A stretch of 64,000 nt of DNA from the NCBI RefSeq assembly GCF_004361855.1, contig NZ_SNWQ01000001.1, positions 124,001-188,000 on the forward strand, in the 5' to 3' direction. This document shows positions 4,105-55,446 of the stretch, one piece after another. The notes under the pieces are model-generated. The model had not been told where the DNA came from. It ran no database searches and saw only the letters and a list, made by a program, of their open reading frames with translations. This stretch comes from Kribbella caucasensis. GTDB lineage: Bacteria; Actinomycetota; Actinomycetes; Propionibacteriales; Kribbellaceae. The position numbers and the translations under genes were made by a program. Each line of letters opens with the position of its first letter. Position 1 is the stretch's first letter.

Positions 4105-5695
4105 GCCCATCCAGGTCGGCGCCACCGGACAGACCGCCGGTCCGCCCCACCAGATCGGCGCGGCCGGACAGGACCAGGGTTTCGGCCTGGTCGAGGTCGA
4201 GATCGTCGTCGATCACCAGCGCCGACGTACCGGTCGCGAGCCGCGCCTCCTCCGCCAGCAACGTGCGCGTCAGCCGCGACCCACCATGGACGCCAACCAG
4301 AGCGGGACCAGCCGTCACACCCGCGTTCAGCGACGCCAACGCACCAGGCAACTCCGCTTCGGTCTGAGGTGCCTCCAACCACAGACCCCACGACCGCGCG
4401 CCCATCCCCTCCCGCGGCTCGGCAACCAGCGGAACCCCGCCAACTACCGCACCGTCGTCAGTCAGCGACACCTGCACCAGCCGCCCCGGCACCGCAACCC
4501 CACCGAACCGGAACGGCGTGCGCAACGGCCCACTCCCCTCCGCGGCAACCCACGCGGCACGAGTCCGCTCGACAAACCCGGGATCGCGCCGCGCCAGCTT
4601 CCCGCCGCTGATACTCCGGGTCAGGAAGTGAAACGCGAACTGCCAAGGCTCCAACGTGTCGTGGTACCGACCGAAGTGCTCCCACCAGGACAGACTCGGC
4701 CGCGCCGACCCCTGGATCTTCTCCACCGAAGGCCGCGCCGATTCCTCGTACGCCGTGAGCGCGGCACCGAGATCGTCCGGATGAGCAACCAATGCGGCGG
4801 CCAACGCGACCGCATCCTCCATCGCCATCTTCGTCCCCGAGCCGACCGAGAAGTGCGCGGTGTGGGCGGCATCCCCGAGCAGGACGACGTTGCCGGCGGA
4901 CCAACTCCCGGTCCGTCTGGTCCGGAAGTTTCCCCAGCGCGAGTTGTTCACCAGCAGGGGATGCCCGTCGATCTGCTCGGCGAACAGCTTCTCCAGGTAC
5001 TCCTTCGACTTCAGGTCGCTCGGCCCCGGCGGCTGGGCCACATCGAATTCGTCCAGCCGGGCCGCCCGCCATGAGTTCTGGTCCGTCTCCACGATGAACG
5101 TGCTCACGTCAGGGCTGATCGGATACCCGTGCACCGCGAACACCCCGTCCGGCCCGCGCTCGTGGACGAAGGTGAGCCCGTCGAACGCGTACGTCGTACC
5201 GAACCAGATGAACTTCGCCGTGGCGGTCTCCGCACTCGGTCCGAGCGCGCCCGCCAGCCGCTCCCGGATCCGCGAGTTCGCGCCGTCTGCGGCGACCACC
5301 AGGTCGTAGTCCCGCAGATCGTCGAGCTCGACCTCGCTTTCGAATCGCAAGTCCACTCCGACTTGTGAAGCGCGCTCCTGCAACACCCCAAGCAACGTCT
5401 TGCGGGCTATCGCCGCCATCCCGTTGCCGCCGCAGCGATACCGCTCACCCTTGAGCCGGACCTCGATCGCGTCCCAGTGCATGCCGTGCTCGCTCAGCGC
5501 GTCCCGGACCACGGGGTCCGCCGCGTGGATGGCGGCCAGCGTGGCGTCCGAGAAGACCACGCCGAAGCCGAAAGTGTCGTCCGCACGATTCCGTTCGAAC
5601 ACGGTCACCTCGGCCGACGGGTTCCCCGCCTTCACCAGAGTGGCGAGGAACAGGCCGCCGGGTCCGCCACCTACACAGGCGATCCTCATCGTCAT
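4094..5695 (-). CDS. FAD monooxygenase, salicylyl/anthraniloyl-CoA hydroxylase type
   Basis: 533 residues. N-terminal FAD-binding GxGxxG (CVGGGPGGLFLATL), central DG motif (VVAADGANSRIRERL) and GD motif (VVLLGDAAHTAHFSVGSGTK) define a group A flavoprotein hydroxylase. The GSGTKMAMEDA segment and overall form match salicylyl-CoA 5-hydroxylase and the N-terminal half of 2-aminobenzoyl-CoA monooxygenase. Together with the two ligases downstream it would hydroxylate an aryl-CoA, for example salicylyl-CoA to gentisyl-CoA. The last 150 residues resemble the NADH:flavin-oxidoreductase-like tail less clearly. Its stop overlaps the next start by 4 nt, so the genes are translationally coupled. Exact substrate is inferred. 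Confidence 0.8.
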   Translation of the reverse strand: MTMRIACVGGGPGGLFLATLVKAGNPSAEVTVFERNRADDTFGFGVVFSDATLAAIHAADPVVRDALSEHGMHWDAIEVRLKGERYRCGGNGMAAIARKTLLGVLQERASQVGVDLRFESEVELDDLRDYDLVVAADGANSRIRERLAGALGPSAETATAKFIWFGTTYAFDGLTFVHERGPDGVFAVHGYPISPDVSTFIVETDQNSWRAARLDEFDVAQPPGPSDLKSKEYLEKLFAEQIDGHPLLVNNSRWGNFRTRRTGSWSAGNVVLLGDAAHTAHFSVGSGTKMAMEDAVALAAALVAHPDDLGAALTAYEESARPSVEKIQGSARPSLSWWEHFGRYHDTLEPWQFAFHFLTRSISGGKLARRDPGFVERTRAAWVAAEGSGPLRTPFRFGGVAVPGRLVQVSLTDDGAVVGGVPLVAEPREGMGARSWGLWLEAPQTEAELPGALASLNAGVTAGPALVGVHGGSRLTRTLLAEEARLATGTSALVIDDDLDLDQAETLVLSGRADLVGRTGGLSGGADLDGRSG

Positions 5696-5730: not shown

Positions 5731-7056
5731 TCAGGCTTGGGTCGTCTGGGGAGTGGTACCCAGAACGGGCTCGGGGCGTGGTTCACGGTTGGTCCGGGGC
5801 ACCGCTGCGATCACCAGGGCACCGAGGACGGCGGGGACTGCGAAGCCGTAGAAGTTCCAGTCGAGACTGAGTTCGGAGTCGAGCACCCAGCCACCGAACA
5901 GCGGACCGACGATCGCGCCGAGCCGGCCGACCCCCAGCGACCAGCCGAGGGCGGTGGCACGACTGCTCGCCGGGTAGTGCGTCGCGACATATCCGTTGAC
6001 CAGGATCTGCGTTCCGACTGTACCGAGACCGGCGACCGCGATCAGCAGATACAGAGCGAACGCAGCCGGGCTGGCGCTGAGCAGGTAGATCGACACCGCG
6101 GCCAACGCGAAGGCCGTGGTGGTGACGACCTTGGAGCCGATCCGGTCGGCCACCGTCGACGCCACCAGGGCACCGACGATCGCGCCGACGTTCAGCACCA
6201 GGAGGAACCTCAGCGACGACCCCAACGGATAGCCGGCCTGACGCATGATCTGCGGCAGCCAGGTGTTCAGGCCATAGACGAGCAACAGGCCGAAGAAGCT
6301 CGCCACCCCGAACAGAATCGTCGCGGCCAGGTGGTTCTTGCCGAAAAGCAGGGCCAACGCACTCCATTTGCTGCTCTTCTCCAGCGCGACCGGTTCAGGC
6401 CGTACGCCGTACTTCGCGGCCAGTGTCGCGGCTTCGTCATGCCGGCCACGAGCCTGCAGGAAGCTCACCGACTCGGGCAGGAACTTCAGGGCGAGCGGCA
6501 GTACGAGGACGAGCGGCGCCATCCCGATCCAGAACATGATCCGGAAGCCGTTGGTCGGGACCAGGTTGATCGCCAGCACCGCGGCCAGCACGCCGCCGAG
6601 CGAGAACCCGGAGAACATCAGCGCGTTGTTGAAGTTCCGGCGGTGTGGCGGCGCGTACTCGACGGTGAGGGCGATCGCCGTCGGGACCACACCGCCGAGG
6701 CCGAGACCGGTGACGAACCGGAGGATGCCGAACACCTCGGCACTCGGCGCCATCGCGGTCGCTCCCATCGCGAGTGAGAACCAGATGATGCTGGCAACCA
6801 TGATCTTGCGCCGCCCGACGATGTCGGTGAGCGCGCCGACGCACAACGTCCCGATCACCATCCCGGTCAGCGCATAACTGCCGATCGCACCGGCCTGACC
6901 GGGAGTGAGGTCCCATTCAGGGTACTGCAGCAACGACGGCACCACTGCGCCGTACACGATCAGGTCGTAACCGTCGAAGACGATCGTGACAAAACAGATG
7001 GCCACCACCCACAGGCCGGTACGGGCGCCGGTGGTGGCATTGGACGGACTGGACAT
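5731..7056 (-). CDS. MFS aromatic acid:H+ symporter (AAHS family)
   Basis: 441 residues, twelve predicted membrane segments. The DGYDLIVYGAVVPSL motif in helix 1 and GRRKIMV in the loop between helices 2 and 3 are typical of BenK/PcaK-type aromatic acid transporters. It leads the operon, with the hydroxylase 35 nt downstream, and presumably imports the aromatic substrate. An inverted-repeat operator candidate sits 67-85 nt upstream of the start, overlapping a TTGACG -35-like hexamer. Confidence 0.85.
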   Translation of the reverse strand: MSSPSNATTGARTGLWVVAICFVTIVFDGYDLIVYGAVVPSLLQYPEWDLTPGQAGAIGSYALTGMVIGTLCVGALTDIVGRRKIMVASIIWFSLAMGATAMAPSAEVFGILRFVTGLGLGGVVPTAIALTVEYAPPHRRNFNNALMFSGFSLGGVLAAVLAINLVPTNGFRIMFWIGMAPLVLVLPLALKFLPESVSFLQARGRHDEAATLAAKYGVRPEPVALEKSSKWSALALLFGKNHLAATILFGVASFFGLLLVYGLNTWLPQIMRQAGYPLGSSLRFLLVLNVGAIVGALVASTVADRIGSKVVTTTAFALAAVSIYLLSASPAAFALYLLIAVAGLGTVGTQILVNGYVATHYPASSRATALGWSLGVGRLGAIVGPLFGGWVLDSELSLDWNFYGFAVPAVLGALVIAAVPRTNREPRPEPVLGTTPQTTQA

Positions 7057-48497: not shown

Positions 48498-48911
48498 GTG
48501 GCGGTCAACCGTAGTCGGAAGGCCAGAGCCGCTCGCCGGCGCAAACGTCGCGTGGATCTCGCCGACAACGACCTGACCGAGGAGCAGTGGACCGCGCTCC
48601 AGGCCGCCTGGAACGGGTGCGCGTACTGCGGCGCGGCCGACCAGGCCCTGCAGCGTGACTGCGTACTCCCCATCTCGCGCGGCGGGCGATACACCCTCGA
48701 CAACGTCGTACCGGCCTGCCGCTCCTGCAACACCAGCAAGTGCAACGACGAGGTCACCGCCTGGCTCCGCCGGAAGCGCCTCGACGAACAGGCCTTCCTG
48801 CTCCGCCACTTCGTAGTCCGCAAGGCCCTCAGTCCGCAACCTCTCGCAGAACCGACCGCCGCACCGGAGCCGACCCTATCGTTGGGGCCGGAGTATGGCG
48901 GTCAGCCGTAG
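48498..48911 (+). CDS. HNH endonuclease domain protein
   Basis: 137 residues from GTG. Basic N-terminus (RKARAARRRKRR), then CAYCG, CVLPISRGGRYTLDNVVPAC and CRSCN form a zinc-supported HNH-type centre (the canonical first His is replaced by the VLP segment, weakening it). Free-standing HNH; its 3' end overlaps the convergent gene. Confidence 0.75.
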   Translation: MAVNRSRKARAARRRKRRVDLADNDLTEEQWTALQAAWNGCAYCGAADQALQRDCVLPISRGGRYTLDNVVPACRSCNTSKCNDEVTAWLRRKRLDEQAFLLRHFVVRKALSPQPLAEPTAAPEPTLSLGPEYGGQP

Positions 48912-49390: not shown

Positions 49391-49627
49391 TCAGCCGCAG
49401 ATGGCCTTGTCCACGAACGCGTCAACGGCCTTGTCGGCGTCACCGCGGAGGAGGTCGGGCGTGACCGCGACCGTGACCTGGCGGCGTCCGTCCTCCGTGG
49501 CGAACGACCAGGCCTGGTACGCCAGGGCATCGCCGTCGTTTCCGTAGATACGGATCCCACACGGGGTATCCCGCCAGGCCAACCCGAGCCCGTACTTCTT
49601 CCCGCCCTCGATCCCCTGCGTCTTCAT
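49391..49627 (-). pseudogene. C-terminal remnant of a class C beta-lactamase-like serine hydrolase
   Basis: 78 codons resembling only the end of a serine hydrolase: YGLGLAWRDTPCG, then GNDGDALAYQAWSFATEDGR and RQVTVAV. The SxxK and YxN parts are missing, and a VOC fragment of opposite strand starts 20 bp away. Confidence 0.6.
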
Positions 49628-49647
49628 CTCGTCTAGCAGGTGCCGCG

Positions 49648-49833
49648 GTGATGGAGGCTGAGGGCCGTGGTGGGCGCTTCAACTTCACTGTCGACGACCC
49701 GGACGCCTTGTGGAACGAGGTCAAAGACCTGGCCGTCATCGTCGAGCCGCTGTTCGACACGCCCTACGGAACCCGGAAGTTCACGATCGCAGATCCCGAC
49801 GGCAACGAGCGCGGCTTCGTCCGCAACGGCTGA
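49648..49833 (+). pseudogene. C-terminal remnant of a VOC-family protein
   Basis: 61 codons, FNFTVDDPDALWNEVKDLAV through YGTRKFTIADPDGNERGFVR, equal to the second half of a glyoxalase-fold protein. It abuts the truncated hydrolase fragment near 49630, suggesting a deletion or recombination joint. Confidence 0.6.
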
Positions 49834-49923
49834 CACCGACGAGACGGCTTCGGACGACGGGAGTCCGGCCCCCAGAAGCACGGAACCCCAGGTCAAGTGG
49901 TGCGTGACCTGGGGATTTGGTGG

Positions 49924-49996
49924 AGCCGCCTGTCGGAATCGAACCGACGACCTTCTCATTACGAGTGAGACGCTCTGCCGACTGAGCTAAGGCGGC
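49924..49996 (-). tRNA. tRNA-Thr (CGT)
   Basis: Complete cloverleaf: acceptor GCCGCCT/AGGCGGC, D arm GCTC/GAGC, anticodon stem TCTCA/TGAGA with loop CTCGTAA, T arm GTCGG-TTCGATT-CCGAC. CCA is not encoded. A canonical gene next to several gene remnants. Confidence 0.97.
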
Positions 49997-50415
49997 GGGT
50001 GCCGAGGCAAGAGTGTAGCGGGAAGGGCGGGTGGTTTCCGAATTGGATGTTCGGGACCGGCTCCTGGGGAGGTTCGGTACGAGGCCCGGGCCGGCGCGAG
50101 AGAGCGGTGCGGGGGTGGCGTGGATCACGTGGGGTGGGTGGCGCGGGGTAGGGGTGCGGGGGTGAATGGCGTGGGAGTGCGGCATGGGTGGCATGGGGGT
50201 GGTCAGGGAGGTGGACGTGGGATTGGAGGTGGGTGAGGACAATCGCCGGAACCGGATGGCCGGCGTGCCCGTCGGACCGGGCGGAGAGACCACCGGAAAT
50301 ACCACCGGGAATAAAAGATGCGGGAAATGCATTGACTTCGGTTGTGGCGGTAGGTGAAACTATTGCCCGGAACGACTCGACAGAGCATCCGATCAGATCA
50401 GCTAGGGGAGACACC
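49997..50415 (+). other. G-rich intergenic stretch before the tRNA/RtcB island
   Basis: About 420 bp. 50100-50230 is strongly G-biased on the plus strand with many GGGTGG and GGGGTG runs, able to form G-quadruplexes. No gene is supported. A promoter candidate, TTGACT (50332) with an 18-nt spacer to GAAACT, precedes the small ORF at 50416. Confidence 0.5.
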
Positions 50416-50565
50416 GTGTTCGGCAAATCGCAGAACGAGCAGCGGGCGTGGCGCTTGATGCGCGCCGACGCCTCAGCCGCGTGCCTGCGATCCGTGCCCG
50501 GATACAACCACGCCTATGAGCTTATCGGCAGACTGAGCCCGAGCCATGGCGGCCCGCCTGCGTGA
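50416..50565 (+). CDS. Small ORF leading the tRNA/RtcB island
   Basis: 49 residues from GTG with the strong ribosome site AGGGGAGA. N-terminal half is basic and helical (NEQRAWRLMRADASAACL), the end is Pro/Gly-rich. Its TGA stop lies inside a perfect 7-bp hairpin (GTGATCC/GGATCAC, 50562-50578), followed at once by a rho-independent terminator. It could be a leader peptide whose translation sets readthrough into the island, or a free small protein. Confidence 0.5.
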   Translation: MFGKSQNEQRAWRLMRADASAACLRSVPGYNHAYELIGRLSPSHGGPPA

Positions 50566-50582
50566 TCCCCAGGATCACCAGC

Positions 50583-50624
50583 AGCCGCCCGTCGGGATCG
50601 ACCGACCAGGGCGGCTTTTTCTTT
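50583..50624 (+). terminator. Rho-independent terminator, possible attenuator
   Basis: AGCCGCCC pairs with GGGCGGCT, with an inner GTCGG/CCGAC stem, then TTTTTCTTT. A perfect 7-bp hairpin lies 4 nt upstream. It opens the island on the left. Confidence 0.85.
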
Positions 50625-50637
50625 GCGTTCATCCCAC

Positions 50638-50706
50638 GTCGGTGCGCAATGGTTGCGAACCGGATTCCAAACCCGCGTTCCGAGGGTTCGATTCCTTCCA
50701 CCGATG
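50638..50706 (+). tRNA. Non-canonical tRNA-Trp-like gene (CCA)
   Basis: Acceptor GTCGGTG/CACCGAT (first pair G-U) and T arm GAGGG-TTCGATT-CCTTC are sound. The loop TTCCAAA holds anticodon CCA. The D arm is only GCAA-TGG-TTGC, and the anticodon stem has mismatches but can extend through GAAC/GTTC. Total 68-69 nt. No encoded CCA. Confidence 0.65.
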
Positions 50707-50740
50707 CTATTTCCCTGCCCACGGACAGGGAATCGAAGAA

Positions 50741-50769
50741 TTGACAACTGGATATGCCATTTGCAATTT
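50741..50769 (+). promoter_or_regulatory. Promoter candidate inside the island
   Basis: Perfect -35 TTGACA, 17-nt spacer, CAATTT as -10. Preceded by hairpin TTCCCTG/CAGGGAA (50710-50733) and followed by CCCGGGCCT/AGGTCCGGG with one mismatch (50771-50792), then tRNA-Pro. Confidence 0.55.
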
Positions 50770-50796
50770 CCCGGGCCTACGCAGGTCCGGGAGGTA

Positions 50797-50872
50797 CGAG
50801 CTGTGGGCCAGCGGCAAGGCCACCTCATTTGGGATGAGGGAATCGGGGGTTCGAGTCCCTCCAGCTCGACCA
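50797..50872 (+). tRNA. tRNA-Pro (TGG)
   Basis: Canonical: acceptor CGAGCTG/CAGCTCG, D arm GGCC/GGCC, anticodon stem CCTCA/TGAGG with loop TTTGGGA, T arm GGGGG-TTCGAGT-CCCTC, and an encoded CCA end. Confidence 0.95.
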
Positions 50873-50958
50873 GGCGCCCGCAGGATGCTAGCTACCGGCC
50901 GAGCGGGCGCCGGCAACGTGCCCTGCGCCGGAAATCCGCAGCACATCCGGTGCAGGGC
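50873..50958 (+). other. Two strong spacer hairpins between tRNA-Pro and tRNA-Arg
   Basis: GGCGCCCGC (50873) pairs perfectly with GCGGGCGCC (50903); GCCCTGCGCCGG (50920) pairs with CCGGTGCAGGGC (50947) with one mismatch. The first begins right at the CCA end of tRNA-Pro, leaving no linker. Likely RNA processing signals. Confidence 0.75.
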
Positions 50959-50963
50959 GCCGA

Positions 50964-51037
50964 ACGCCCGTGGCTCAACCGGAGAGAGCACCTGTTTACG
51001 AAGCAGGGGGTTGCAGGTTCAAGTCCTGCCGGGCGTG
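50964..51037 (+). tRNA. tRNA-Arg (ACG)
   Basis: Acceptor ACGCCCG/CGGGCGT, D arm GCTC/GAGC, anticodon stem CCTGT/GCAGG with loop TTACGAA, T arm GCAGG-TTCAAGT-CCTGC. No CCA. Only 2 nt separate it from the next tRNA. Confidence 0.95.
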
Positions 51038-51039
51038 CT

Positions 51040-51116
51040 GTGTCCGAAGCAGAAGTGGGCGATGCACCGGGACGTGGCCCCGGCGGAAGCGGGTTCGAGT
51101 CCCGCCGGACACCCCA
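51040..51116 (+). tRNA. tRNA-His-like (GTG) with A8 and C33
   Basis: Acceptor GTGTCCG/CGGACAC, anticodon stem CCGGG/CCCGG, T arm GCGGG-TTCGAGT-CCCGC and encoded CCA are intact. The anticodon loop is ACGTGGC, so position 33 is C not U; position 8 is A; the D stem has three pairs; and the base before position 1 is T, so the G-1 of histidine tRNAs is not encoded. Confidence 0.8.
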
Positions 51117-51122
51117 GTACAG

Positions 51123-51196
51123 GCGGCTCTGGCCCAATTGGAAGAGGCAGCCGGTTCAGGACCGGAAGGTTCGGGGTTCGAGTCCCTGGAGCCGCA
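51123..51196 (+). tRNA. tRNA-Leu-like (CAG) with a class I body
   Basis: Acceptor GCGGCTC/GAGCCGC, T arm CGGGG-TTCGAGT-CCCTG, anticodon loop TTCAGGA on a four-pair CCGG/CCGG stem. The variable region is 5-6 nt, whereas bacterial tRNA-Leu has a long arm. Identity by anticodon only. Confidence 0.75.
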
Positions 51197-51297
51197 CGAA
51201 CAGACAGCAGCAACCACGCGCACCGGCGTACGGGCGCACCGGAAAGGACGACCCGGCAAACAGGTGTCGGGCACACTTGAGGAGAGGAGGAACCACC

Positions 51298-51744
51298 ATG
51301 AGCGGTGTGATCGTGCTCAACGCCTCGTACGAGCAACTGCATGTCGTGTCGGTCCAGCACGCCATCCGGATGCTCGTCCGCGAGGTCGCCGTCGTCGAGG
51401 AAGCGCACGACGGCGCCAGCATCGGACCGTTCCCCTTTCCACGCGTGCTGCGCCTGGTCCGGTATGTGGTGACCAAGTGGCGCTACAAGACCGGCCGGAT
51501 CCAGTACACCCGGGTCGGCGTGCTGAAGCGGGACAAGTACACCTGCGCGTACTGCGGCAAGTCCGGCGCGAACACGATGGACCACGTCGTACCCCGGTCC
51601 CGTGGTGGCCGTGGTGAGTGGCTGAACGCCGTCGCCGCGCACGCGTCCTGCAACGAGAAGAAGGGCTCCCGCACGCCCGAGGAAGCCGGTATGCCGCTGC
51701 TGTGGCAGCCGTGGATTCCCTCACGTGCGGAGATAGCACTCTGA
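51298..51744 (+). CDS. HNH endonuclease of the tRNA/RtcB island
   Basis: 148 residues from ATG with GAGGAGAGGAGG upstream. N-terminal family motif VLNASYEQLHVVSVQHAIRM, then YTCAYCG, MDHVVPRSRGGRGEWLN, CNEKKG and the RTPEEAGM tail, a full zinc-supported HNH. Related proteins are chromosomal in many actinomycetes, normally without tRNAs alongside. Here it lies between tRNA-Leu-like and tRNA-Gln genes on one strand and is probably co-transcribed. Target (DNA or RNA) unknown. Confidence 0.85.
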   Translation: MSGVIVLNASYEQLHVVSVQHAIRMLVREVAVVEEAHDGASIGPFPFPRVLRLVRYVVTKWRYKTGRIQYTRVGVLKRDKYTCAYCGKSGANTMDHVVPRSRGGRGEWLNAVAAHASCNEKKGSRTPEEAGMPLLWQPWIPSRAEIAL

Positions 51745-51767
51745 CGCGGCGCTCACCGGTGCCGCGT
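51744..51767 (+). other. Hairpin at the HNH stop codon
   Basis: ACGCGGC pairs with GCCGCGT around a 10-nt loop, beginning on the last base of the stop codon and ending 10 nt before tRNA-Gln. Confidence 0.6.
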
Positions 51768-51777
51768 TGGAGCGCGG

Positions 51778-51850
51778 TGCCAGGTGGGCGACGGTGACCC
51801 ACCCTCGGTTCTGACCCGAGGCCCCGCAGGTTCGACCCCTGCCCTGGCAG
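51778..51850 (+). tRNA. tRNA-Gln-like (CTG) with six-pair anticodon stem
   Basis: Acceptor TGCCAGG/CCTGGCA, T arm GCAGG-TTCGACC-CCTGC, loop TTCTGAC on a CCTCGG/CCGAGG stem of six pairs; D stem short (GGG/CCC). No proper CCA (GCCCA follows). Confidence 0.85.
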
Positions 51851-51853
51851 CCC

Positions 51854-51905
51854 AGCACCGCATGACCGTGGGCTCAACCGTGATCGCGGCCGACCGTGCG
51901 GTGCT
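51854..51905 (+). other. 9-bp terminal-stem RNA element between tRNA-Gln and tRNA-Ser
   Basis: AGCACCGCA pairs with TGCGGTGCT, enclosing 34 nt that include a D-arm-like GGCTCAACC. There is no T arm, so it is not called a tRNA. It fills the spacer entirely (3 nt to each neighbour). Confidence 0.55.
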
Positions 51906-51907
51906 CC

Positions 51908-52000
51908 GGCAGAGTAAGCCGAGTTTCGGCCTATCGGCAGCCGTCCCGAAAACGGCCTGCCCCTCAGCGGGGCGTCAGGGTTCGAGACCCTGCTCTGCCG
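51908..52000 (+). tRNA. tRNA-Ser (CGA) with C33
   Basis: Class II body: acceptor GGCAGAG/CTCTGCC (extendable by C-G), D arm GCCG/CGGC, anticodon stem GCCGT/ACGGC, long variable arm GCCCC-TCAGC-GGGGC, T arm CAGGG-TTCGAGA-CCCTG. The loop is CCCGAAA, so C replaces U33. Ends 28 nt before rtcB. Confidence 0.85.
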
Positions 52001-52028
52001 CATGTACGACAACCAGAGGGGTGAGGAG

Positions 52029-53222
52029 ATGGACGTGGAGTTCCCGGTGGCGCTCAGTGGGGCGAAGAGTTCCACGTTGATGTGGGCCCCGGAGCATGAG
52101 GTGGGCGCGCAGGCGCTGCAGCAGTTGCGGAACATCGCCGCACTGCCGTGGGTGCACGGTGTTCGGGTGATGCCGGACGTGCACCTCGGTAAGGGCGCGA
52201 CGGTCGGGTCCGTGATCGCGATGAAGCAGGCGGTCTCGCCGGCGGCCGTCGGTGTCGACATCGGTTGCGGGATGGAAGGTGTGCTCACGTCGCTCACCGC
52301 CACGGATCTGCCGGATGACCTGTCGGTGATCCGGTCGCGTATCGAGGCCGCCGTACCGGTGGGCTTCCGGGCGCACGAGGATCCGGTGAGTGTGCGGAAG
52401 CTCGGGCTGGACCGTGGTTGGGAACGGTTCTGGGGTTCGTTCTCCAGCCTGCACGACGGGGTGCAGGACCGGGAGAAGAAGGCGCACCAGCAGATGGGGT
52501 CGCTCGGCGGCGGCAACCACTTTATCGAGGTGTGCCTGGACGACGAGGACCGGGTCTGGCTGATGCTGCACTCGGGCAGCCGCAACATCGGCAAGGAACT
52601 CGCTGAGCGTCACATGCGGATCGCCCGGCAGTTGCCGCACAACGCGGATCTGCCGGACCGCGATCTGGCTGTGTTCCTGGCCGGCACGGCGGAGATGGAC
52701 GCGTACCGGCGTGATCTGACCTGGGCGCAGGAGTACGCGGCTCGGAACCGTGCGGTGATGCTCGCCCTGGTGATGCAGGCGGTGCGGGAGTCGTTCGCGC
52801 AGCCGGTCGGCTTCGAGCAGCCGATCTCGTGCCACCACAACTACGTGGCGGAGGAGACGATCGACGGACTCGACCTGCTGGTCACCCGGAAGGGCGCGAT
52901 CCGGGCGGGACTCGGCGATCTCGGGCTGATCCCGGGTTCGATGGGCACCGGCTCGTACGTCGTCCGTGGGCTCGGCTCGGAGCGCTCGTTCTACTCGGCC
53001 TCACACGGGGCGGGCCGGCGGATGAGTCGCAACGAAGCCAAGCGCCGGTACACGGTCGACGACCTGATCGCGCAGACAGCCGGGGTCGAGTCGCGCAAGG
53101 ACGCCGGGGTGCTGGACGAGATTCCGGCGGCGTACAAGGACATCGAGTCCGTGATCGCAGCGCAGGCGGATCTGGTCGAGGTGGTCGCCCACCTCAAGCA
53201 GATCATCTGCGTCAAGGGCTAG
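52029..53222 (+). CDS. rtcB: RtcB RNA ligase
   Basis: 397 residues from ATG 52029. Metal and guanylylation residues are all in place: MPDVHLGKG, GVDIGCGM, GGGNHFIE, LHSGSRNIG, HHNYVAEE, SASHGAGR (the guanylylated His) and the C-terminal KG. RtcB joins 2',3'-cyclic phosphate to 5'-OH RNA ends using GTP and Mn2+, and so repairs cut tRNAs. It is embedded between tRNA-Ser genes, one 28 nt upstream and one 114 nt downstream. No archease or PrfH gene is nearby. Confidence 0.95.
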   Translation: MDVEFPVALSGAKSSTLMWAPEHEVGAQALQQLRNIAALPWVHGVRVMPDVHLGKGATVGSVIAMKQAVSPAAVGVDIGCGMEGVLTSLTATDLPDDLSVIRSRIEAAVPVGFRAHEDPVSVRKLGLDRGWERFWGSFSSLHDGVQDREKKAHQQMGSLGGGNHFIEVCLDDEDRVWLMLHSGSRNIGKELAERHMRIARQLPHNADLPDRDLAVFLAGTAEMDAYRRDLTWAQEYAARNRAVMLALVMQAVRESFAQPVGFEQPISCHHNYVAEETIDGLDLLVTRKGAIRAGLGDLGLIPGSMGTGSYVVRGLGSERSFYSASHGAGRRMSRNEAKRRYTVDDLIAQTAGVESRKDAGVLDEIPAAYKDIESVIAAQADLVEVVAHLKQIICVKG

Positions 53223-53226
53223 CTCA

Positions 53227-53295
53227 CACCGGCAGCTCCCGTACTACGGGGGTGCCGGGCGGGCGCCGCCGTCCGCAGGGGAGGCGGCGGCGCCC
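53227..53295 (+). other. Two strong hairpins after rtcB
   Basis: CCGGCA/TGCCGG (53229-53258), with an inner CCCGT-ACT-ACGGG stem, and GGGCGCCGCC/GGCGGCGCCC (53261-53295). They lie between the rtcB stop and tRNA-Ser (GCT), as with the other spacer hairpins of the island. Confidence 0.75.
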
Positions 53296-53336
53296 GGGAT
53301 GAACTGCCGTTCGGAGGGCGATCTCCGGGCGGTGTT

Positions 53337-53425
53337 GGTGAGGTCCGCCTGTCGGCAGAGGCAGCGGTTTGCTAAACCGTCGGCCGGGTTCGCCCGGTCC
53401 GCGAGTTCGACTCTCGCTCTCACCG
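53337..53425 (+). tRNA. tRNA-Ser (GCT)
   Basis: Class II: acceptor GGTGAGG/TCTCACC, D arm GCC/GGC, anticodon stem GCGGT/ACCGT with loop TTGCTAA, variable arm CCGGG-TTCG-CCCGG, T arm GCGAG-TTCGACT-CTCGC. No CCA. Normal U33. Confidence 0.95.
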
Positions 53426-53466
53426 CTGGGACGGCCGGGGCAAACCGGCCGGCCCTGCCAAATCTC

Positions 53467-53549
53467 GCAGGAGCGCCACCGTCGGAGAGGTGGGGCGGGC
53501 TGTAAACCCGTTGCTTCGCGCTGAGCAGGTTCGACTCCTGTCTCCTGCA
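53467..53549 (+). tRNA. tRNA-Tyr (GTA)
   Basis: Acceptor GCAGGAG/CTCCTGC, D arm CCACC/GGTGG, anticodon stem GCGGG/CCCGT with loop CTGTAAA, longer variable region, T arm GCAGG-TTCGACT-CCTGT. The 41-nt gap before it holds a CGGCCGG/CCGGCCG hairpin. Confidence 0.93.
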
Positions 53550-53591
53550 CCCCGAATTGGGACATCAACACGAAAGAGAGGAGGACCGGCC

Positions 53592-53789
53592 ATGGCCGAC
53601 CTCAAGAACGCACGAAAGAAGATCCCTGGCGGCAGGACCGGTGCTCCGGTCAAACAGGGTCACGCGCTGCGCCGGGTGATGCTCGCCTGCGGGCACGTCC
53701 AGCGCGACCGGATCGCCCACCCGGGCGATCACGTCTGGTGCGAGTCCGACTGTTCCGACTGGGTCCGCGTCGTCTCCGTCGAGGAGTAG
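53592..53789 (+). CDS. Small basic Cys/His protein of the island
   Basis: 65 residues with GAGAGGAGG upstream of ATG 53592. Basic N-terminus (ADLKNARKKIPGGRTG), then LACGHVQRDRIAHPGDHVWC and ESDCSDW: Cys, His, Cys, Cys spaced as in a small zinc ribbon, suited to RNA binding. Not recognised; conserved position in the island would be the best clue. Confidence 0.7.
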   Translation: MADLKNARKKIPGGRTGAPVKQGHALRRVMLACGHVQRDRIAHPGDHVWCESDCSDWVRVVSVEE

Positions 53790-53800
53790 ACCCGTACCCC

Positions 53801-53897
53801 CACCACTCACCAAACCCGCGCCGCCGCAACGGCCGCGGGTGAACCGAGCGTGCAACGGCGGCCGGCCTCCGTGTCGGCCGCCGCTTGCTGAGTGGTG
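53801..53897 (+). ncRNA. Three-way-junction RNA element
   Basis: Outer stem CACCACTCA (53801) with TGAGTGGTG (53889), 9 perfect pairs. Two inner hairpins: ACCCGCG/CGCGGGT (53814-53840, with CCG/CGG above a bulge) and GCAA-CGGCGGCCG with CGGCCGCCG-C-TTGC (53852-53888). A closed, fully paired structure of 97 nt between the small protein and the last tRNA. New sRNA or processing scaffold. Confidence 0.7.
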
Positions 53898-53908
53898 CAG
53901 GTACACAA

Positions 53909-53977
53909 CTCTCTGGTGACGGATGCACGCCTGGCCCTCCGAAGGCCGGGTCCCTGGTTCGACTCCAGGCAGAGAGA
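53909..53977 (+). tRNA. Non-canonical tRNA-Arg-like gene (CCG)
   Basis: Acceptor CTCTCTG/CAGAGAG, T arm CCTGG-TTCGACT-CCAGG, loop CTCCGAA on a stem that extends to seven pairs (CCTGGCC/GGCCGGG). Only 16 nt lie between acceptor and anticodon stems, enough for a GTG-ACGGATG-CAC mini D arm without positions 8-9. 69 nt in all, like the first gene of the island. Confidence 0.65.
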
Positions 53978-53980
53978 CAA

Positions 53981-54022
53981 CGTCCGAAGAACCGAGGGCT
54001 ATAGGCCAAGGTTCTTCGGACG
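53981..54022. terminator. 13-bp perfect hairpin closing the island
   Basis: CGTCCGAAGAACC pairs with GGTTCTTCGGACG around 16 nt. It lies 3 nt after the last tRNA and 9 nt before the convergent oxidase gene's stop, so it may serve both strands. Confidence 0.85.
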
Positions 54023-54030
54023 CAAGCGCT

Positions 54031-55446
54031 TTAGAGGAAGACCTTGTCCGGGTTGAGGAGGCCGGCGGGGTCGAAGACTGACTTGATCTCGCGTTGTAGC
54101 CGCAACCCCACGGGACCCAGCTCGGCCTCGAGCCATTGGCGTTTGAGTTTGCCGATGCCGTGTTCGCCGGTGATCGTGCCGCCCAGTGCCAGGCCGAGGT
54201 TCATCACCGCACCGAAGGCCTCCAACGCGCGCGCCTCGGCCGCCGGGTCGTCGCGGTCGAACACGACCGTCGGATGCATGTTCCCGTCACCTACATGCCC
54301 AGGGCAACAAATCAGTACGTCGTACTTCGCGCCGATCTCCGCGATCCCGTGCAACAGCGCGACCAAACGGCTTCGCGGCACGGCGACGTCGTCGATCAAC
54401 GTCGTCCCGAGCGGCTCCAGCGCCGCGTGCACCAGACGACGAGCCTCCAGCAGCATCGCCGACTCCTCGGCATCCGACGCCTCGGCGACCTCGACGGCCC
54501 CGTGCGCAGTACAGATCGCCGCGATCGCCGCCACGTCCTCGGCCGCGCGCGGACCACGATCCGACTGCGCGAGCAGCAGCGATCCGACGTCGGCCGGCAG
54601 CCCCATGTCCCGGTAGTTCTGGATCGCCCGAGCCGTCGGCCCGTCCAGGAACTCCAGTAGCGAGGGCCGCAACCCCGACGCCATCACAGCCGCCGCGGCC
54701 GCGATCCCGTCCTCGATCGACAGGAAAGTCGCCGCCGCGGTCAAGGCAGCCTCGGGCGCGGGAAGCAACGCCAGCGTCGCCTCCGTGACGACACCGAGCG
54801 TCCCCTCCGAGCCCACGATCAACCGCGTGAGGTCATACCCCGCGACACCCTTCACCGTCCGCCGGCCGGTCCGCACGACCTCGCCGGATGCCAGCACCAC
54901 CTCCAGACCGCGAACGAAGTCACCCGTCACGCCGTACTTCACACAACACAGCCCGCCCGCGTTGGTCGCGATGTTCCCACCGACCGTGGACATTTCCCAC
55001 GACGACGGATCCGGCGGGTAGAAGAGCCCGGCCTCCCCCACCGCATGGGAGAGGTCAGCGTTCACCACCCCCGGCTGCACCACGGCGACCTGGTCCTCGG
55101 CCGAGATCTCCAGCACCTTGTTCATCCGCGCGGTCGACAGCAGGATGCACCCGTCGATCGCGTTCGCCGCCCCCGACAACCCGGTCCGCGCGCCCTGCGT
55201 CACCACCGGTACGCCGTACTCCCCGGCTGCCCGCAGCACTTCGGCAACCTCGGCCGTCGAGCCGGGACGTACCAGAACGGCAGGCACCCCGGCGGCGCAG
55301 AACGTCGCCTCGTCATTGCGATGGCTGTCCAGTACGTCGGGATCGGTGACGACCGCCTTCTCCCCGAGCGCAGACCGAAGTCGCGCGATCAACCGCTCCG
55401 AGCCGATCCGCTGCTCGGGGCCAGTCGGCGAATCCGAAGAGATCAC
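54031..55446 (-). CDS. FAD-linked 2-hydroxyacid oxidase (GlcD-like)
   Basis: 471 residues from GTG 55446 (overlaps the upstream stop by 4 nt). N-terminal FAD-binding PCMH domain (TQGARTGLSGAANA, MSTVGGNIATNAGGLCCVKY) and C-terminal FAD-oxidase domain with the metal site region CCPGHVGDGNMH and TGEHGIGKLKR. Oxidises a 2-hydroxy acid, glycolate, lactate or a sugar acid. Last gene of the sugar-acid operon. Confidence 0.88.
   Translation of the reverse strand: MISSDSPTGPEQRIGSERLIARLRSALGEKAVVTDPDVLDSHRNDEATFCAAGVPAVLVRPGSTAEVAEVLRAAGEYGVPVVTQGARTGLSGAANAIDGCILLSTARMNKVLEISAEDQVAVVQPGVVNADLSHAVGEAGLFYPPDPSSWEMSTVGGNIATNAGGLCCVKYGVTGDFVRGLEVVLASGEVVRTGRRTVKGVAGYDLTRLIVGSEGTLGVVTEATLALLPAPEAALTAAATFLSIEDGIAAAAAVMASGLRPSLLEFLDGPTARAIQNYRDMGLPADVGSLLLAQSDRGPRAAEDVAAIAAICTAHGAVEVAEASDAEESAMLLEARRLVHAALEPLGTTLIDDVAVPRSRLVALLHGIAEIGAKYDVLICCPGHVGDGNMHPTVVFDRDDPAAEARALEAFGAVMNLGLALGGTITGEHGIGKLKRQWLEAELGPVGLRLQREIKSVFDPAGLLNPDKVFL

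Follow-up and report, generated by a model that had tools for sequence, protein, structure and literature searches.

A conserved leader reading frame and predicted attenuator before an RtcB and tRNA gene island in Kribbella

The RNA ligase RtcB joins 2',3'-cyclic phosphate or 3'-phosphate ends to 5'-OH ends, and in Salmonella the control of rtcB answers broken tRNA: the CARF domain of the regulator RtcR binds 5' tRNA halves and turns the rtcBA operon on (PMC7790460). Here we describe an island in which rtcB keeps company with ten tRNA or tRNA-like genes, a gene for an HNH endonuclease-family protein and a gene for a 65-residue Cys/His protein, all on the forward (+) strand. The island lies in the actinomycete Kribbella caucasensis (genome of 9.46 Mb in 89 contigs), within a stretch of 64,000 nucleotides (positions 124,001 to 188,000 of contig NZ_SNWQ01000001.1) that we call the window and whose coordinates we use. 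On balance, and with moderate confidence, we favor reading the island as a tRNA-damage response operon, in which an attenuator governed by leader translation would stand before rtcB and the extra tRNAs and release them when ribosomes stall for intact tRNA. Between them, the conserved leader and the predicted terminator would probably turn on the cluster in response to cutting or shortage of the cell's own tRNAs. Unlike rtcBA/RtcR, the host genome gave no match to RtcR and none to RtcA in searches whose E. coli controls were positive, the predicted sensing goes through translation of a leader, and the tRNA genes are inside the operon.

Other described systems share single traits with the island. 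The actinobacterial attenuators of trp, trpS, leuS and ilvB combine a leader open reading frame (ORF), a terminator and an alternative pairing (PMC1262725), but they serve one amino acid and its metabolism, whereas in the island several scarce residues are mixed in a leader that precedes tRNA genes and rtcB; the gene name rtcB does not occur in that text. The tRNA arrays of mycobacterial chromosomes, plasmids and phages are dense and redundant, with embedded HNH genes and tRNA bodies unlike the chromosomal ones (PMC5966550, PMC12803027). An array unit was defined as at least 20 tRNAs with a density of at least 2 per kb (PMC5966550); the island, with 10 in 3.3 kb, has the density but not the number, and unlike those units it is fixed in one chromosomal place, holds RtcB inside and has a predicted attenuator in front. 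In Anabaena a silent tRNA operon (trn) and rtcB are released together under translational stress (PMC10272220), but there separate loci answer to one repressor protein, TrcR, whereas here one locus would stand behind a predicted RNA switch. Nuclease-evading phages carry extra tRNAs, many with changed anticodon loops (PMC10264068, PMC11555353); in that case phage genes act against the host, whereas here the set is the bacterium's own, on its chromosome, and some loops are unaltered. One by one, all four kinds of element are already known: attenuators, operons for RtcB repair, HNH-bearing tRNA arrays and nuclease-evading phage tRNAs. Among the matches listed, in a literature search that left most subscription journals outside, we found no paper joining RtcB with a leader peptide or an attenuator.

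The leader and its predicted attenuator

The leader ORF (50416..50565, + strand) starts with GTG behind the Shine-Dalgarno-like AGGGGAG and encodes VFGKSQNEQRAWRLMRADASAACLRSVPGYNHAYELIGRLSPSHGGPPA in 49 codons. It was found in all 38 Kribbella loci, in 37 by script and in L048 separately, with the common pattern V.G....AWR....(A)CLRSV....YHQLS.E.SP..GGPP. The scripted choice favored ORFs with CLR, WR and GGP by a bonus; a search free of this bonus returned the same ORF in the 27 loci where that search's own patterns matched. Across 37 of the 38 loci the ratio of nonsynonymous to synonymous variation (pN/pS) is 0.57 in frame, or 0.59 when the last eight codons are removed, versus 0.94 and 1.41 in the shifted forward frames. 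The locus omitted from this set is L062, where the scripted start is probably internal; its longer reading is used in the comparison with Micromonospora below. Upstream of the leader lies a promoter-like block, TTGACT ... GAAACTATTG (50332..50365, +), which by eye is conserved in nearly all 38 loci and on which a sigma-70 consensus scan made no call.

Between the leader and the first tRNA slot we predict an intrinsic terminator (50583..50624, +) whose stem, 50583-50616, folds at -25.9 kcal/mol (z -4.3) and is followed by a U-run to 50624. The U-run ends 13 nucleotides upstream of the tRNA-Trp slot in the window and 10-43 nucleotides upstream of it in the 26 loci that keep this slot, and the leader stop lies 58-70 nucleotides upstream of the U-run end in the 38 loci. 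A predicted antiterminator (50548..50589, +) reaches back into the leader ORF: the GGCGGC of its Gly-Gly codons pairs with GCCGCC of the terminator arm, with the stop codon inside the structure, and the RNA 50545-50600 folds at -25.7 kcal/mol. Once the 3' arm is included in the window fold, the terminator captures GCCGCC from the antiterminator, and by prediction the two structures are mutually exclusive. Of the alignment cells of the 38 loci, 90.8% are paired in the antiterminator versus 39-52% after the arms are shifted by 1-3 columns, and 91.5% in the terminator versus 34-54%, with eight cells of the terminator changed on both sides; the covariation scores of the two structures were matched by 3/500 and 0/500 shuffles, respectively. 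These pair counts depend on alignment by MAFFT and on a structure derived from a single member. The island would combine, by prediction, several features of an attenuator: a constrained leader ORF led by a Shine-Dalgarno-like sequence, an intrinsic terminator before the first gene, and an exclusive antiterminator, the last with few double changes.

The sequence-only reading, made from the letters of the window without database searches, had begun the island at this hairpin and had taken strong hairpins at its two ends for bounding terminators. The hairpins are indeed present at both ends, but the right one, a 13-bp inverted repeat at 53981..54022 (+; -29.9 kcal/mol, z -5.7), has no U-run, and a consensus terminator scan of the window listed neither it nor the left one. 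The extent given to the island was incomplete, since the leader ORF and the promoter-like block (50332-50565) had been missed. Because leader, terminator and pairing recur together, we reject the view of the left hairpin as a mere boundary in favor of a predicted attenuator terminator. A search of Rfam at E 0.1 over 49500-54500 gave no match besides the tRNA genes.

The composition of the leader may bear on what it would measure. Against a background of 27 window genes, the 38 leaders are enriched in Cys (3.0-fold), Ser (1.9), Trp (1.8), Tyr (1.7), Arg (1.6) and His (1.45) and depleted in Val (0.4), Ile, Asp and Gly; CGA makes up 45 of the 183 leader Arg codons versus 6% in the background. Of the 11 isotypes that the Kribbella islands encode between them, at least 10 occur in 36/38 leaders versus 15.6% of background windows of like length, counts that are not independent, as the Kribbella leaders are related to each other. 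In one locus, L033 (6021-6200), the leader carries consecutive Ser-Leu-Arg repeats, which gives the impression of multiplied sensor codons. His and Tyr amount to 7.1% in Kribbella leaders versus 1.5% in those of Micromonospora, and Gly to 5.7% versus 12.2%, which parallels the respective islands; however, the two sets of leaders also differ in Asp and in three residues without a cognate island tRNA (Phe, Ile and Lys), so that the contrast is confounded and only hints at a match between leader codons and island.

This mixture of many scarce residues, with no single one repeated, would also suit a general sensor of translation stress or starvation, in which ribosomes slowed by drugs or by amino acid shortage open the attenuator and the extra tRNAs raise translation capacity. 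The Anabaena trn operon and rtcB, repressed by TrcR and relieved under antibiotic translational stress (PMC10272220), and an E. coli upstream ORF that senses several classes of ribosome-targeting antibiotics (PMC12121999) lend this explanation precedents. Nevertheless, we regard it as unlikely, if worth keeping in view: the enzyme encoded downstream is a ligase for broken RNA, more in keeping with damage than with starvation, and the same change next to the anticodon, A instead of G at position 37, recurs in the island's tRNA-Arg(ACG) (38/38), tRNA-Gln (38/38) and tRNA-Arg(CCG) (23/24).

For the damage-response operon we propose the following course. At rest the leader would be translated to its stop codon. 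As this stop lies inside the antiterminator, the GGCGG arm should be hidden under the terminating ribosome, as in the off state of classic attenuators; the terminator would form and the island stay off. Under attack, cleavage of the Trp, Arg, Cys, Leu, Ser, Tyr, His or Gln tRNAs would make a ribosome stall in the leader upstream of GGCGG, the arm would be left free, the antiterminator would form and RNA polymerase would read on into the island. RtcB would then mend the cut tRNAs and the spare island tRNAs would replace them. The natural trigger would be cut tRNA, and the extra tRNAs would work in translation, several of them with anticodon loops altered to escape the cutting enzyme.

Several results from the leader region weigh against this proposal. 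The window antiterminator fold has a z of only -2.1, with 6/200 shuffles equally good. Pairs changed on both sides number 4/19 in the antiterminator and 2/15 in the terminator and were matched by 58/500 and 142/500 shuffles, and in neither structure is the number of pair types better than in shuffles. Apart from Cys the enrichments are less than twofold, Gln and Leu are hardly enriched, and Pro, Glu and Asp not at all. The combined fraction of Trp, Cys, His, Tyr and Gln is 0.171 in frame versus 0.113-0.150 in the other frames, and the fraction of island isotypes is 0.636 in frame and up to 0.621 in the others. In Streptomyces coelicolor, attenuator-like leaders of ilvB and leuA, when mutated, did not behave as attenuators (PMC1262725). 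A conserved element between the Trp and Pro slots (50739..50768, +), recognized by eye, could be a promoter that bypasses the switch. This element, AATTGACAACTGG..CAATT, is present in most Kribbella loci and could equally be an operator or an RNA processing site; as a promoter it would be internal to the island.

Conservation of the island and its tRNA genes

The island is a fixed part of the Kribbella chromosome. Compared as 19-kb stretches (14 kb for two loci on short contigs), all 38 Kribbella genomes examined carry it in synteny, and the order and strand of those parts that are present are kept in all of them: the order Trp-Pro-Arg-His-Leu-HNH-Gln-Ser-RtcB-Ser-(Asp, Glu, Glu)-Tyr-(Cys)-small protein-Arg is recognizable, with gaps, in 38/38. 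A housekeeping tRNA-Thr(CGT) on the opposite strand adjoins the island in 36 of the 38 loci, the other two being those on short contigs. This common place throughout the genus leads us to reject a recent insertion. HNH and the small protein are found in 38/38 and RtcB as one uninterrupted segment in 36/38. The two exceptions, L036 without RtcB and L061 with RtcB in three pieces, keep leader and tRNAs and count against the damage-response reading. Several loci hold additional DNA. Before the Tyr slot, segments of 1.3-1.4 kb occur in L038, L039, L042, L048, L051, L054, L057 and L059, whose ORFs resemble, by eye only, an alpha/beta hydrolase and a small membrane protein; between Gln and RtcB, segments of 0.9-1.1 kb without a coding-like ORF occur in L048, L049, L057 and L063.

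These observations bear on an alternative reading of the island, as a mobile or phage-type tRNA array that has been domesticated and is expressed constitutively, with the leader ORF and terminator a separate small gene that lies upstream by chance. Arrays bearing HNH genes are known from mycobacterial chromosomes, plasmids and phages (PMC5966550, PMC12803027), RtcB has a match in 653 phage records, and loop mutations are predicted to let phage tRNAs escape the anticodon nucleases of the host (PMC10264068). However, the constant neighborhood of the tRNA-Thr, the U-run shortly before the Trp slot in each of the 26 loci that keep it, and the recurrence of leader and terminator with tRNA/RtcB islands in other families, and also with RtcB alone, make this explanation of the island very unlikely.

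With default settings, ARAGORN calls eight tRNAs on the + strand of the island: Pro(TGG) at 50797..50872, Arg(ACG) at 50964..51038, His(GTG) at 51040..51116, Leu(CAG) at 51123..51197, Gln(CTG) at 51778..51852, Ser(GCT) at 53337..53426, Tyr(GTA) at 53467..53551 and Arg(CCG), with a reduced D arm, at 53909..53978. A tRNA-Trp(CCA)-like gene (50638..50707, +) is called at a relaxed threshold only. A tRNA-Ser(CGA)-like gene (51907..52000, +) is not called even then, perhaps because its position 33 is C (by eye), but it folds as a class II tRNA, and Ser(CGA) is called in the corresponding slot of 19/38 loci. Together with the Pfam matches of HNH and RtcB, this upholds the inventory of ten tRNA or tRNA-like genes and three proteins on one strand that had been drawn up from the letters alone. 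Across the genus, slots were chosen by place, anticodon and length window at the relaxed ARAGORN threshold, so that tRNAs with changed anticodons are missed in the counts of filled slots, which among the 38 loci are 38 for Arg(ACG) and Gln, 35 for Pro, 31 for Ser(GCT), 29 for His, 27 for Leu, 26 for Trp, 24 for Arg(CCG), 23 for Tyr, 19 for Ser(CGA), 15 for Glu(CTC), 4 for Glu(TTC) and 3 for Asp. Identity across the genus is 86-95% in six tRNA slots versus 21-68% in four spacers; the Trp, both Ser and the Arg(CCG) slots are less conserved, with 78-87% identity.

Each of the ten anticodons recurs elsewhere in the host genome, on other tRNA bodies, so that no island tRNA is a sole copy. Sole housekeeping copies, which the sequence-only reading had named as an outcome that would speak against it, are thereby ruled out, and its idea of spare tRNAs beside a ligase gains from this redundancy, from the retention of the island across the genus and from the active-site residues kept in RtcB. 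The acceptor pairs are standard, from 119 of 133 cells in Ser(CGA) to all cells in Pro, Arg(ACG), Glu and Tyr. Discriminators, and in Pro and Gln also the first pair, are constant in several slots: C1-G72 and A73 in Pro (35/35), U1-A72 and G73 in Gln (38/38), and the discriminators G73 in Ser(GCT) (31/31), A73 in Tyr (23/23) and C73 in His (29/29).

Other slots fit less well with working, nuclease-resistant spares. Arg(ACG) has G73 in 35/38 where the housekeeping counterpart has A, and Arg(CCG) has A in 16/24 where the counterpart has G. The His slot has T, not G, at position -1 in 29/29 and C at 33, in place of U33, in 16/29; the window His tRNA shows both traits. The Leu slot holds a class I tRNA of 75-77 nucleotides without a long variable arm in 27/27, whereas the housekeeping Leu(CAG) has 85 nucleotides. 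This length was not imposed by the 73-78 limit used for the slot, as default ARAGORN without a limit gives only that length there; the body of the window Leu tRNA is closest to tRNA-Lys(CTT), and Leu tRNAs of 74-76 nucleotides also occur in the Rhizocola island and in two Micromonospora islands. Finally, the anticodon loop is identical to the housekeeping loop in 16/35 Pro, 12/19 Ser(CGA) and 12/23 Tyr copies.

The odd bodies (the Lys-like class I Leu, the His without G-1 and often without U33, the Arg(CCG) with its reduced D arm), the exchanged discriminators of both Arg slots and the loops that some Pro, Ser(CGA) and Tyr copies share with the host would be compatible with decoys, bound or cut by an anticodon nuclease instead of the housekeeping tRNAs and in no need of charging. 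We think this quite unlikely for the island as a whole. The isotype discriminator and first pair are kept in all Pro and Gln and in nearly all Ser and Asp copies, and a decoy needs neither; beside the anticodon, where a decoy should match the host, the loops of Arg, Gln, Trp, Ser(GCT) and Glu are different. With respect to the damage-response operon, the island tRNAs look like a mixture: some seem chargeable with an altered loop, some are unaltered, and some are doubtful as tRNAs.

Two further tRNA loci deserve mention. Contig 8 of the host (87100-92050) carries two copies of a tRNA-Gly-Cys-Val block at a distance of 2.35 kb. In a Micromonospora island (L148:4615-4692, from the genome that also holds L225) ARAGORN assigns a four-base anticodon (ccaa), and with it an enlarged anticodon loop, to a tRNA that resembles Trp in place and body.

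RtcB and its neighbors in and beyond Kribbella

RtcB (52002..53222, +; Pfam RtcB, E 6.4e-123) is the only one in the host genome. The ORF has 406 codons for amino acids, and by eye the ATG at 52029 has a better Shine-Dalgarno sequence than the ORF start. In an alignment with 1uc2, read by eye, the residues of the metal and guanylate site are kept; we take these to be D95, C98, H203, H234, H329 and H404 of the Pyrococcus horikoshii enzyme. The host has 12 matches to the PIN domain, the fold of VapC. Since VapC leaves ends that RtcB would not seal, a cutting enzyme of another type (colicin, PrrC, HEPN or MazF) is the likelier opponent.

A scan of genome contigs confirmed 587 RtcB relatives, of which we kept 80 and examined flanks of up to 5 kb on each side. 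Twelve of the 80 lie in tRNA islands (five from Kribbella, five from Micromonospora, one from Rhizocola hellebori and one from a member of the Pseudonocardiaceae), one in Arthrobacter (L136) has a single tRNA-Thr at a distance of 1.3 kb, and for 67 ARAGORN calls no tRNA within the stretch examined. In all seven islands outside Kribbella a terminator lies 15 to 157 nucleotides before the first called tRNA and a short leader ORF precedes it; in L146 a 15-codon ORF was preferred by eye over the scored one. A leader-terminator pair before every actinobacterial RtcB is not supported: among the tRNA-poor loci, in scans insensitive enough that one missed known Micromonospora leaders, it was seen only in L143, L140, L135 (by eye) and L136. 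In the last of these (4560-4760) the leader ends NKPCYQQDEPTWHRRTGS and is followed by a strong terminator 240 nucleotides before RtcB, with no tRNA island.

Micromonospora carries RtcB in 113/121 genomes at E 1e-100, and we examined 70 of these loci: the 30 best, plus 40 taken at roughly every second place from the remaining 83. A + strand tRNA is present in 34 and a related leader in 44, of which one (L277) is spurious and one (L232) extends beyond the usual stop; 32 loci have both, 12 a leader only and 2 a tRNA only. After three leaders of more than 50 residues were dropped, 41 remained for the terminator count and for the comparison with Kribbella above. Typical leaders end GRCRRQRWQPGWWRD, and their Gly-Trp-Trp codons, GGGUGGUGG, are complementary to the terminator arm. 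A hairpin with a U-run follows 30 of the 41. The remaining 11 have no U-run by pattern, although ten of these show, by eye, a hairpin and a poorer T-run, and 24 of the 70 loci have neither tRNA nor leader; both results count against the damage-response reading.

The island HNH protein (51298..51744, +; 148 residues; Pfam HNH, E 2.7e-11) was assigned by the sequence-only reading to the module, as a nuclease acting on an invader or on the island's own RNAs. Its retention in all 38 Kribbella loci and in the Rhizocola hellebori island (56% identity over 142 residues) agrees with a place in the module and would suit such an active arm. PADLOC gave it only weak matches over the HNH core, among them PtuB, itself an HNH protein. 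PtuA and PtuB of retron-Eco7 degrade tRNA-Tyr (PMC11555353). Nevertheless, the family is widespread (224/345 genomes) and mostly solitary, with no tRNA within 1.5 kb for 28 of 29 loci outside Kribbella among the matches listed; a paralog of 76% identity lies elsewhere in the host (contig 1, 275928-276362), and no HNH was flagged in the 70 Micromonospora RtcB loci. On the solitary loci and the Micromonospora result we reject HNH as a core part of the wider system, and the notion of an active arm appears highly improbable to us. A second HNH gene is located at 48498-48911 of the window, about 2.4 kb before the island HNH. Homologs found apart from tRNAs in most relatives had been named in advance as speaking against the module as a whole, and the outcome goes half that way: it holds for HNH in the 28 of 29 loci and for RtcB in the 67 of 80 relatives.

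The 65-residue Cys/His protein (53592..53789, +) had no match in Pfam, NCBIfam, PHROG or PADLOC. Its gene was found in 38 of 147 genomes searched, which comprise all 38 of the genus and none of 109 others. A structure model of low confidence (mean predicted local distance difference test score, pLDDT, 69) shows a disordered tail and a small beta domain and gave no match at E 0.001. Relatives were met only in Kribbella and in one actinomycete metagenome-assembled genome, L140, where a relative (6190-6375; 53% over 62 residues) is encoded directly behind RtcB, itself behind a leader and terminator. PADLOC gave no match for RtcB either and did not match the island as a known anti-phage defense system.

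Implications for the sensing of tRNA damage

The island bears on how bacteria without RtcR detect the cutting of tRNAs. It may represent a second, RtcR-independent way of sensing broken tRNA in actinobacteria, with a leader of scarce residues as a gauge of many tRNAs at once that, on exhaustion of any one of the matching tRNAs, frees RtcB and a private set of nuclease-resistant spare tRNAs; we consider the chances of this evenly balanced. If it is true, the ribosome itself would be the gauge, and the single leader RNA of these harmless soil bacteria would offer a ready reporter for anticodon-nuclease attack, phage defense and toxin warfare. One RNA switch would govern an RNA ligase and tRNA genes together, linking RtcB and spare tRNAs as one repair-or-replace module, and a chromosomal tRNA cluster would gain a role in the stress response rather than in codon supply.

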